DNA of 64,000 nucleotides, from NCBI RefSeq assembly GCF_024585265.1, contig NZ_CP036533.1, positions 124,001-188,000 of the forward strand. The letters are read 5' to 3'. Shown here one piece after another: positions 11,012 through 14,279 of the stretch. The notes below the pieces were generated by a model, which was not told the DNA's origin, did no database searches, and saw only the letters and a list, made by a program, of their open reading frames with translations. Origin of the DNA: Bradyrhizobium sp. WBAH42. Lineage in GTDB: Bacteria; Pseudomonadota; Alphaproteobacteria; Rhizobiales; Xanthobacteraceae. The translations under genes were made by a program, and so were the position numbers. Position 1 is the stretch's first letter, and every line of letters starts with the position of its first letter.

Positions 11012-12268
11012 ATGAGCCGTGCCAACCGTACCGACCACATCCGCCTGACCTCCCATCCGGAGCCGGGCAGGAAGGCCGCCTTTCCGATCCATTGGGGCGC
11101 CACTGATGCGCGCGCCCGCGGGCCGATCATCGGCACGGTATCGCGCGCCGGAGACCGCAACGTGATCGGTAGCCATGGCGGCTCCTATGCGATGTACCGG
11201 GCGCTCGCGGTCTCCGCCGGCGCGCTCGATCCGATTCGAAGGCCCGATCTCACCAACACCTTTCCGGCCGCGACCATCGGCCCGTTCCCGCAATGGAGCG
11301 ATCCCACGAAAATCGTCGCGCTCGATCCCTGGGGGCACCTGGTCGCCGAGAATTTTCGCAAGGAGATCGCCGAGGGCGCGGACATCCGCCCGAGCATCGC
11401 TGTGACGCGGGCGCGGCTCGACCTGCCCGAGATCCGTGAAGCGATCGCCGCAAAGCGGCTCCGCGCCGACGGCGAGGTCGTGCACGCCAATGGCAGCGTC
11501 TCGGTGGTGAAGATCGCGATCGATCCGGTGTGGTACCTGCCGGGCCTTGCGGCGCGCTTTGGCACCGGCGAGACCGAGCTGCGGCGCACGCTGTTCGAGC
11601 AGACTGCCGGCATGTTCCCCGAACTCGTCACGCGATCGGACATGAAGGTGTTCCTGCCGCCGATCGGCGGCACTACGGTCTATCTGTTCGGCGACGTGAC
11701 AAAACTGCCGGACCATCGCACCAGGATCACCTGCCGCGTGCATGACGAATGCAACGGCTCCGACGTGTTCGGCTCCGACATCTGCACCTGCCGGCCCTAT
11801 CTGATCCACGGCATTGAGGAATCCGCGCGCGGCGCGCAGGAGGGCGGGCTCGGGCTCGTCATCTACAACCGGAAAGAGGGCCGCGCGCTCGGCGAGGTCA
11901 CCAAATTCCTGGTCTACAATGCGCGCAAGCGGCAGGAGGACGGCGATGCGGCCGCCGCCTATTTCGAGCGCACCGAGTGCGTGGCCGGCGTCCAGGACGC
12001 GCGCTTCCAGCAATTGATGCCGGATACGATCCACTGGCTCGGCCTCAAGCGCATCGACCGTTTCCTGTCGATGAGCGACATGAAATACGATGCGCTGACC
12101 TCGCAAGGCATCGACATCGTCGAGCGCGTGCCGATCCCGCTGGAGCTGATTCCGGCCGATGCTCATGTCGAGATCGCCGCGAAGAAAGCTGCCGGCTATT
12201 ACTCCACCGACATCGCGCCGGAGAAGGACGTCAACGGCGTGGTCGGGCGTTCGCTGGAAAAATACTGA
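11012..12268 (+). CDS. GTP cyclohydrolase II-like enzyme of uracil catabolism (URC1/urg1 type)
   Basis: 418 residues, about twice the length of a plain RibA. GGGAG lies seven bases before the ATG. The C-terminal half carries the GTP cyclohydrolase II core: RVHDEC followed by DICTC, with zinc ligands Cys247, Cys258 and Cys260 (C-x10-C-x-C, the RibA spacing), then YNRKEGRALG, matching the RibA RQEGR segment. The N-terminal 200 residues are an extension typical of the URC1 group. In the yeast URC/urg pathway this protein is needed to degrade uracil by a non-reductive route thought to run through ribosylurea. The next gene begins five bases after the stop and the UPRT-like gene follows, so the context favours URC1 over riboflavin synthesis. 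Confidence 0.85.
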   Translation: MSRANRTDHIRLTSHPEPGRKAAFPIHWGATDARARGPIIGTVSRAGDRNVIGSHGGSYAMYRALAVSAGALDPIRRPDLTNTFPAATIGPFPQWSDPTKIVALDPWGHLVAENFRKEIAEGADIRPSIAVTRARLDLPEIREAIAAKRLRADGEVVHANGSVSVVKIAIDPVWYLPGLAARFGTGETELRRTLFEQTAGMFPELVTRSDMKVFLPPIGGTTVYLFGDVTKLPDHRTRITCRVHDECNGSDVFGSDICTCRPYLIHGIEESARGAQEGGLGLVIYNRKEGRALGEVTKFLVYNARKRQEDGDAAAAYFERTECVAGVQDARFQQLMPDTIHWLGLKRIDRFLSMSDMKYDALTSQGIDIVERVPIPLELIPADAHVEIAAKKAAGYYSTDIAPEKDVNGVVGRSLEKY

Positions 12269-12273
12269 TCGCG

Positions 12274-13512
12274 ATGGCGGACGCTTTGGAATCACAGGCG
12301 CGCGCACTGCTCACCGCAAAGGCGGTTCGCGCGCGCGCCGGGCAGATACTCGAGCTCGGCCTTGCCGGCGGGCTCACCCATTTCACCGTTGATCTCGACC
12401 GCATGGATGGCGTTGCCGATGCCGTGCTCGCGGTGACACGTAAAGCCTATCCGACGCTCGACATTCCGTTCCATGCGCGCTGGCGGCACTTCGTGCTCGG
12501 CGGCGTCGACCGCTGGGCCCGGCTTGCCGATGCTGCGTCCTGGCCGGATCGCGCGGCGCGGGCGCGCGCCGAGTTCGACCTCGCCATCGTCAGCGTGCTG
12601 CTCGACGCCGGCGCCGGCGCGGCGTGGCGCTATCGCGACGCCGTGACGGGAGCAGAAGTAGGCCGATCGGAAGGGCTTGCGATCGCGAGCCTCGACATGT
12701 TCGCGAGCGGGCTGTTTTCGCACGATGCCAGGGCGCCGTTCAGGGCCGATGCGGATGTGCTCGCAAGACTGCCCCTCGCCTCCATCGCCTCCGCCTTTCA
12801 GGTGAGCGACGTCAACCCGCTGCTCGGCCTGGAGGGACGCACCGACCTACTGCGTCGTCTGGGCAAGCAGGTCTCGGAGCGTGCGGACGTGTTCGGCTTG
12901 CACGATACGCCGCGGCCGGGCGGGCTGTTCGATCATATCGCGGCGCGGGCGATCGGCGGCACTGTTGCTGCGCCCGCGATCCTGTCCGCGGTGCTGAACC
13001 AGCTCGGGCCGATCTGGCCGTCGCGGCTCGAGCTCGCGGGCGTCCCGCTCGGCGATTGCTGGCGCCATCCTGCGATCAAGGCGGACGACGGCACTGCGGG
13101 CCTCGTGCCGCTGCACAAACTATCGCAATGGCTGAGCTATTCGCTGATCGAGCCGCTGCAGCGCGCCGGCTTCGAGGTGACCGACATCGACGGCCTGACC
13201 GGGCTTGCCGAATATCGCAATGGCGGCCTGTTCGTCGACCATGAGGTGCTGCGCCTGCGCGAAGCCGCGGATGCCGAGCGCGCGCATGCGGTGGACTCGC
13301 TGCTCGTCGTGGAGTGGCGCGCGCTGACCGTTGCTCTGCTGGATCGCCTTGCCGAACTGGTTCGCGTCAAGCTCGGCCGTACGTCCGAGACATTGCCGCT
13401 CGCCAGCATTCTCGAAGGCGGCACCTGGGCCGCCGGCCGCGCCATCGCCTTTGCACGCCGCCGCGATGGATCGCCGCCGCTCAAGGTGATCAGCGACGGC
13501 ACGGTGTTTTAG
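12274..13512 (+). CDS. DUF1688 protein of uracil catabolism (URC4/urg3 type)
   Basis: 412 residues; the ATG at 12274 is five bases after the cyclohydrolase stop codon, so translation is probably coupled. The whole protein matches the DUF1688 pattern: LTHFTVDLDRMDGVADAVL, FHARWRHFVLGGVDRW, a middle LHDTPRPGGLFDHI, and DGTAGLVPLHKLSQWLSYS in the C-terminal half. This family is restricted to organisms with the URC/urg pathway and is required for uracil use as a nitrogen source in yeast. Its reaction is not established from sequence and no classical cofactor motif is apparent. It is soluble, with no signal peptide. Confidence 0.88.
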   Translation: MADALESQARALLTAKAVRARAGQILELGLAGGLTHFTVDLDRMDGVADAVLAVTRKAYPTLDIPFHARWRHFVLGGVDRWARLADAASWPDRAARARAEFDLAIVSVLLDAGAGAAWRYRDAVTGAEVGRSEGLAIASLDMFASGLFSHDARAPFRADADVLARLPLASIASAFQVSDVNPLLGLEGRTDLLRRLGKQVSERADVFGLHDTPRPGGLFDHIAARAIGGTVAAPAILSAVLNQLGPIWPSRLELAGVPLGDCWRHPAIKADDGTAGLVPLHKLSQWLSYSLIEPLQRAGFEVTDIDGLTGLAEYRNGGLFVDHEVLRLREAADAERAHAVDSLLVVEWRALTVALLDRLAELVRVKLGRTSETLPLASILEGGTWAAGRAIAFARRRDGSPPLKVISDGTVF

Positions 13513-13540
13513 AGAATGGATAGAGATTTTCGACCACGCG

Positions 13541-13620
13541 CGTCATTGCGAGCGCAGCCAAGCAATCCAGTGTCCGACCGCGGAGGGATCCTGCATTGCT
13601 TCGCTGCGCTCGCAACGACG
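13541..13620. repeat. palindromic intergenic repeat, family A (copy 2)
   Basis: An 80-bp copy, CGTCATTGCGAGCGCAGCCA to GCTGCGCTCGCAACGACG. It lies inside the URC operon, between the DUF1688 and UPRT-like genes, so it would be transcribed and could modulate expression of the third gene. Confidence 0.9.
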
Positions 13621-13649
13621 CCTCGGTGAAATTTCAGGAGCATCTCATT

Positions 13650-14279
13650 ATGGAAGGCGTCACGATCGTCGATCATCCGCTGGTGCAGCACAAGCTGACG
13701 CTGGTGCGGGACAAGTCCATCTCGACCAAGTCGTTCCGCGAGCTGATCAAGGAGATCGGCATGCTGCTGTGCTACGAGGTGACGCGCGACCTACCGCTCG
13801 CCGACACCGTCATCGAGACGCCGCTGGCGACGATGCATTCGGCCAAGATCGCCGGCAAGAAGCTGGTGTTCGTGCCGATGCTGCGCGCTGGCACCACCTT
13901 CGTCGACGGCATGATGGACCTGGTGCCGACCGCTCGCGTCGCCCATATCGGCCTCTACCGCGAGCCGCACAGCTTCGCGGCGGTGGAGTATTTCTTCAAA
14001 TCGCCCTCTGACCTCGGCGAGCGCCTCGCCATCGTGGTGACGCCGGTGGTCGCCACCGCCAACACCGCCGTCGCCGCCATCGACCGGCTGAAGGAGCGCG
14101 GCGCCAGGGACATCCGCCTTGCCTGCCTGATCGCAGCTCCTGAAGGGCTCGAGCGGCTGCGCGGATTGCATCCGGACGTGCCGATCTGGACCGCGGCGGT
14201 GGATGAAGGGCTCGACGACAACGGGTTCATCCTGCCGGGCCTCGGCGATGCCGGCGACCGCGCCTACGGAACGCGGTAA
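13650..14279 (+). CDS. uracil phosphoribosyltransferase-like protein (URC6/urg2 type)
   Basis: 209 residues, the usual Upp length, with AGGAG upstream of the ATG. It aligns along its whole length with Upp: [21 protein letters not shown] at the N-terminus, [20 protein letters not shown] in the middle and the uracil-binding [13 protein letters not shown] at the end. However, the PRPP loop, normally D-P-M-L-A-T-G-G-S, reads T-P-V-V-A-T-A-N-T (residues 131-139): the acidic residue and both glycines are missing. Classical uracil + PRPP chemistry may therefore be altered. In the yeast pathway a UPRT homologue is part of uracil degradation, and the operon context supports that role. Annotation simply as salvage upp would be risky. 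Confidence 0.85.

Follow-up and report, generated by a model that had tools for sequence, protein, structure and literature searches.

A likely uracil-degrading URC operon of Bradyrhizobium with a predicted Qng1-like N-glycosidase, an altered uracil phosphoribosyltransferase and a leader hairpin

In a 64,000-nucleotide stretch of the genome of Bradyrhizobium sp. WBAH42 (hereafter the window, which lies within one 8.29-Mb contig) we find three neighbouring genes, encoding a URC1-type cyclohydrolase, a DUF1688/URC4 protein and a paralogue of uracil phosphoribosyltransferase (UPRT), that very probably break down uracil for nitrogen, and from which we infer growth on uracil. It is quite likely that they form a bacterial URC operon in which the ring of a uridine nucleotide is opened by the URC1-type enzyme, urea is released by a Qng1-like URC4 and ammonia is set free by urease. 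Operons of this kind are already known, and what is new here is the assignment of URC4 to an enzyme type by its fold and site, together with the altered UPRT and a leader hairpin upstream of URC1. The URC pathway is one of the less well understood routes of uracil degradation, and the Qng1/DNA-glycosylase fold gives DUF1688/URC4 a concrete enzyme claim with named residues, namely the release of urea from a ribosylurea nucleotide. This assignment should extend to the fungal proteins, including fission yeast urg3, next to which lies urg1, the source of a promoter system, and if it is true, a DNA-glycosylase-like fold has been put to nitrogen scavenging.

In the proposed pathway the operon UPRT would convert uracil to a uridine nucleotide, although in Bradyrhizobium a second, intact UPRT of the genome is the likelier enzyme for this step. 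The URC1-type enzyme would then open the pyrimidine ring of the nucleotide (uridine triphosphate (UTP), going by the title of a solved relative), leaving phosphorylated ribosylurea and a three-carbon piece, after which DUF1688/URC4 would hydrolyse the N-glycosidic bond to give urea and ribose phosphate, at a predicted site with glutamates E313 and E381 at two acidic positions beside K282 and W385, and urease would free ammonia from the urea.

The same three clustered protein families occur as URC1, URC4 and URC6 in Lachancea kluyveri and as urg1, urg3 and urg2 in fission yeast, and the accessible part of one account describes the three fission yeast genes as clustered and uracil-induced (PMC2174524). 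Another, likewise accessible in part, describes the yeast URC pathway with a urea amidolyase, and its URC4 step as the conversion of ribosylurea to urea (PMC7530994). The locus studied here differs from the yeast systems in its bacterial operon order, its altered Bradyrhizobium UPRT and its leader hairpin and, as far as that partial account goes (PMC7530994), in that the genome has a urease where the yeast pathway has urea amidolyase. The original prediction, drawn from the window alone, that the trio lies in order on one strand with the first two genes five bases apart was borne out by the open reading frames (ORFs) and family scores, the first spacing being exactly 5 bases (12269-12273). The trio thus comprises a URC1-type protein, an adjacent DUF1688/URC4 and a clustered UPRT whose phosphoribosyl pyrophosphate (PRPP) loop is altered, and judged from the sequence scores the match of the three genes to their families is far beyond chance.

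DUF1688 also lies beside genes resembling GTP cyclohydrolase II and UPRT in other genomes, as had been anticipated. In a sample of 397 Pseudomonadota genomes, the window's own included, DUF1688 (PF07958) and the N-terminal domain of URC1 (PF12471) were each found in 28, and the two sets were identical (Fisher p 1.4e-43, ignoring kinship). The two genes were adjacent in 28/28, with 683-885 bases between their domain matches and both on one contig, while among 14 control genomes none had PF07958 and one (Corynebacterium glutamicum) had PF12471, under the cut-off. Within the genus, DUF1688 was present in 27 of 35 other Bradyrhizobium genomes and missing from 8. In 24 of 26 loci (25 fetched flanked loci and the window) the gene that comes after DUF1688, in the same orientation, is the UPRT gene, the exceptions being L089, where it is divergent, and L100, where it was not found. 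A further survey of 84 loci, made up of the best 80 of 582 confirmed genome loci and 4 of 13 plasmid records, gave the full trio in order in 77; its genome loci are close relatives, and distance is added by the plasmid loci, which come from Azospirillum, Cupriavidus, Pseudoroseomonas and Gordonia, the Gordonia plasmid being actinobacterial. The exceptions in this survey were four loci without URC1 in the fetched flanks, one cut by a contig end, one in which an additional ORF precedes UPRT, and one that failed only the 400-base limit. The DUF1688 loci with no URC1 in these flanks belong to three Enterovirga and to Rhizobiales bacterium YIM 77505, and UPRT is present in three of the four, with none at L176.

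The URC1-type protein carries the domains PF12471 and PF00925 and scores 748.5 bits against NF005536 'GTP cyclohydrolase II' (cut-off 403). It is 63% identical over nearly its full length (580 bits) to PDB 7eev and 7ej3, entries with the titles 'Structure of UTP cyclohydrolase' and 'UTP cyclohydrolase' that give the molecule name as GTP cyclohydrolase II, and the substrate of the window protein is predicted from this likeness. The AlphaFold2 model of the protein was poor (pLDDT 65.2) and the sequence match alone was used. UTP cyclohydrolase is reportedly the subject of a 2021 study by Zhang. Cysteines 247, 258 and 260 are invariant in the aligned set (20 of 26 proteins aligned), and as we take these to be the zinc ligands of RibA-type GTP cyclohydrolase II, the three cysteines of that enzyme are present here.

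The DUF1688 protein scores 485 bits against PF07958, and its closest proteins among the best 120 of 7996 matches, from Bradyrhizobium sp. USDA 223 and B. yuanmingense, are 93% identical and already publicly annotated as 'URC4/urg3 family' or 'DUF1688 family'; distant members were absent from the best 120 of 7996 in either of two large protein searches. The predicted model of DUF1688 has, across the whole chain, the fold of Qng1 (DUF2419), the queuosine-5'-monophosphate N-glycosidase (PDB 7u07, 7u91 and 7ugk), and the protein shares with Qng1 a C-terminal ...T-(I/V)-F motif. Lys282 and Trp385, the apparent counterparts of Qng1 Lys199 and Trp302, are invariant in 52/52 DUF1688 proteins, as is Glu313, and Glu381 is found in 49 of the 52 with Gln in the other 3, the correspondence to Qng1 at all four positions being read from a constant offset. 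The model and these residues suggest that DUF1688/URC4 is an N-glycosidase with a Qng1/DNA-glycosylase-like fold that releases urea. Searches of PDB sequences that started from the DUF1688 protein, from a relative or from profiles gave no Qng1 chain, with chance-level matches or none. Qng1 is said to have been studied by Hung (2023) and Zallot (2014). Our search, outside which most subscription papers lay, found no literature linking DUF1688, URC4 or urg3 with DUF2419 or Qng1, and Qng1 itself (PF10343) was not found in the 397 genomes, an absence that is not established because no control genome gave a match either. The original prediction had called the DUF1688 reaction unassigned, which was right of the enzyme type, but the family was already named and its step already given as ribosylurea to urea in the accessible part of the published account (PMC7530994).

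Neither RutA nor PRK08318, which we take to be PydA, was found above its curated cut-off in this genome (best PRK08318 match 32.1 against 335 bits), and urease alpha is present. Two of the three hydantoinase/dihydropyrimidinase genes of the genome lie near racemase-like genes (judged from protein starts), and to our knowledge hydantoinase-type enzymes cannot act on uracil without dihydropyrimidine dehydrogenase. Within the limits of the curated models the trio is therefore the sole uracil ring-opening route found here. Together with the identical sets of 28 genomes and the 63% identity to a UTP cyclohydrolase, the lack of RutA and PydA above cut-off supports the URC identity first proposed for the trio. 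A mutual exclusion of Rut and URC was considered and rejected, RutA being found in 4/28 URC genomes versus 26/369 others (p 0.15).

The third protein scores above the cut-offs of the upp models (266.6 bits for NF001097 and 247.7 for TIGR01091, the latter with a cut-off of 208.35) and shares with Upp the C-terminal PGLGDAGDR segment, but its PRPP loop reads T131-P-V-V-A-T-A-N-T in place of D-P-M-L-A-T-G-G/N-S. The aspartate at position 131 presumably binds PRPP; it is lacking in the window UPRT, and Thr or Ser takes its place in 64/64 Bradyrhizobium loci examined (59 distinct sequences, the window's included). Over the 67 loci counted the residue is T in 47, S in 17 and D in 3 (L008, L022 and L024, all from other families), and in the other UPRT-bearing loci of the trio survey (n=44) D is kept in 33, with V, A, S or N in 11. 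The median ratio of nonsynonymous to synonymous substitution rates is 0.055 for UPRT (range 0.005-0.516, 66 comparisons), 0.063 for URC1 (48 comparisons) and 0.146 for DUF1688 (59 comparisons), based on the locus list of the position-131 count with loci of other families included; judged by these ratios the window UPRT is under purifying selection, and its altered loop makes it unlikely to be an ordinary PRPP-using enzyme. Of the original equation of this gene with URC6, family membership and clustering stand, but because the PRPP-loop aspartate is lost its part as a working URC6 is uncertain. A second UPRT of the genome (G000:C1:2828118-2828726) keeps the aspartate in the loop DPMLATGNS and scores 277.3 bits against 247.7 for the window UPRT, and two further PF14681 matches are partial (27.2 and 22.1 bits).

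Considering that the NCBIfam label of the URC1-like protein is GTP cyclohydrolase II, and that the sole other PF00925 match of the genome is a RibB-fused protein without a cysteine in its GTP cyclohydrolase II-like part, the cluster might instead belong to flavin metabolism, with URC1 providing the GTP cyclohydrolase II step of riboflavin synthesis. We regard this as very improbable, since the protein reaches only 48.5 against 205.85 bits with the RibA model TIGR00505 (and 57.7 against 148 bits with NF001591), the URC1 family never occurs without DUF1688 in the 397 genomes, the closest solved relative is titled UTP cyclohydrolase, and 7/8 DUF1688-less genomes of the genus have the RibB-fused type as their only PF00925 match, so that the genus does without URC1; with scores so far under the RibA cut-off and genus genomes that manage without the gene, a riboflavin role was rejected. 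The RibB-fused protein of this genome (L195:874-1950, around G000:C1:3178850; 358 amino acids, 82.8 bits) has a ribB domain above cut-off, and in those 7 genomes its equivalents are 87-94% identical and likewise have no cysteine in the GTP cyclohydrolase II-like part. It also seems fairly unlikely that the trio serves nucleotide or uridine clearance and not the use of uracil as a nitrogen source, even though a pathway with UTP as its substrate would drain the nucleotide pool and no known transporter was found among the seven scanned neighbour proteins beside the window trio. Urease alpha is present, yeast work on the URC pathway speaks against clearance as far as the accessible parts go (PMC7530994, PMC3869809), and transporter or cytosine deaminase genes adjoin the operon in other taxa. 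At L101 (same phylum, outside the class) the UPRT gene overlaps a gene for a RutR-like regulator (201 bits, short of the 368 required for RutR), after which comes one for a BMP-type transporter protein (84.5 bits, where the model requires 400). A cytosine deaminase (823 bits, above its cut-off of 438) is found in L102, a relative of L101, and on an Azospirillum plasmid BMP, ABC permease and amidohydrolase genes come after the trio.

Several observations count against the URC operon with a Qng1-like URC4 as we propose it. Asp231 and Asp298 of Qng1 are absent and correspond to Glu313 and Glu381, so that catalysis may differ from that of Qng1; DUF1688 stays under the Pfam gathering score of Q_salvage (PF10343; best 21.2 against 25 bits), with a match at E<=1 in 17/52 proteins; and the Qng1 segments taken singly do not stand out from shuffled sequences (between 211 and 667 of 2000 equally good), two of the three bacterial segments having their best score elsewhere. 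The substrate of Qng1 is a 5'-monophosphate, whereas a triphosphate would be expected from ring opening of UTP. At the level of the pathway, URC1 was not found in the fetched flanks of L157, L171, L172 and L176 (the rest of these genomes being outside the search), all three hydantoinase/dihydropyrimidinase genes of this genome score above cut-off, and Rut and URC coexist in 4/28 URC genomes. It is conceivable, if unlikely, that DUF1688 belongs to the URC pathway without being an N-glycosidase of phosphorylated ribosylurea, its substrate being the free nucleoside or another intermediate, or its activity that of a lyase; besides the two Glu positions and the sub-threshold Pfam similarity, the published account, where accessible, gives ribosylurea without phosphate (PMC7530994). 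However, the whole-chain fold, the invariant Lys and Trp and the retained acids argue for the N-glycosidase, and a step from ribosylurea to urea requires exactly this bond to be cut.

Directly before the URC1 start lies a GC-rich hairpin with a T-run (-24.1 kcal/mol, z -2.90, 1/200 shuffles equally good), which is not the terminator of the upstream gene because that gene is divergent. Its core pattern occurs once in the window (0.00 expected) and in 98/247 fetched loci, in 98/98 of them 21-74 nucleotides before URC1 and nowhere else there, the 247 including repeats of the same place and the 98 representing 76 distinct URC1 5' ends. The stem is nearly invariant in 23 aligned sequences, so that covariation is not assessable, and this near-invariance of the core in close relatives suggests leader control. 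Outside Bradyrhizobium the stem has a different sequence, but a hairpin ending in a T-rich tail is frequently retained. A terminator-like score of at least 25, devised after the sequences had been seen and compared with control genes drawn from flanked loci, is reached by 69/112 URC1 upstream regions versus 12/181 control genes; for regions outside Bradyrhizobium 23/58 reach it and 35/58 fall below (p 1.4e-8 against the same controls, ignoring kinship). A first, simple count had found any hairpin in 86/112 URC1 upstream regions (44-53 of 112 when shuffled) versus 96/181 control genes; counting only hairpins that have a T-run gave 36/112 (12-14 when shuffled) versus 20/181. Six stretches were folded, of which that at L193 lies inside a gene and was unused. 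No known RNA family was found in window positions 10500-14700 (best match 13.4 bits, gathering score 40) or, at gathering score, in 7 other loci, and a sigma-70 promoter scan called none. As a lead, the hairpin may act as an attenuator that responds to UTP or to a protein. A more far-reaching version, which we hold to be quite improbable, would make the Bradyrhizobium operon UPRT a sensor of uracil or uridine nucleotides (PyrR-like in principle) and no longer a phosphoribosyltransferase, controlling the operon with the leader hairpin or by UTP-dependent read-through of the U-run, with the second UPRT feeding the pathway and URC4 as a nucleotide glycosidase that stems from the Qng1/DNA-glycosylase fold and releases urea.

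A block at window positions 10887-10930 (TTAACTTGTCTGTCG...CCGCTACAATATG) upstream of URC1 is common to many Bradyrhizobium relatives and is possibly a promoter. By eye, a different conserved leader lies directly before URC1 in L169, L177, L184 and L189 (Brevundimonas) and in L095 and L099 (same class); this Brevundimonas-type leader has two short stems and an A-rich loop and no Rfam match at gathering score.

Features of the trio and its leader in window coordinates
Feature	Position	Strand	Details
GC-rich leader hairpin with T-run, candidate attenuator or leader element	10962..10999	+	stem 10962-10996, T-run 10995-10999
URC1-type cyclohydrolase (UTP cyclohydrolase-like; annotated GTP cyclohydrolase II)	ATG 11012 to stop 12268	+	418 amino acids
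DUF1688/URC4, predicted Qng1-like N-glycosidase releasing urea	ATG 12274 to stop 13512	+	412 amino acids
Gap with palindromic repeat, before UPRT gene	13516..13635 (extent approximate)	.	arms 13546-13565, 13596-13615
UPRT paralogue, altered PRPP loop	ATG 13650 to stop 14279	+	209 amino acids

The DUF1688 and UPRT genes are 137 nucleotides apart, and because this gap holds a palindromic repeat the UPRT gene is coupled more loosely than the first two genes; an alternative start of its ORF, a TTG at 13596, is likewise open. Ten matches to the repeat arm occur in the window at <=3 mismatches (0.04 expected), at positions 1873, 13546-13615, 24341, 42782-42852, 46748-46817, 52443 and 62097, and 6/10 arms form three pairs about 50 bases apart. 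Upstream of the trio lies the divergent gene, which encodes a pyridoxal phosphate enzyme, and downstream comes a possible small ORF in the same orientation, then M48 peptidase and DUF898 genes on the other strand. Further on, at window positions 16831-19795, stand two similar tandem ORFs of 421 and 424 amino acids that by eye are cytochrome P450-like.

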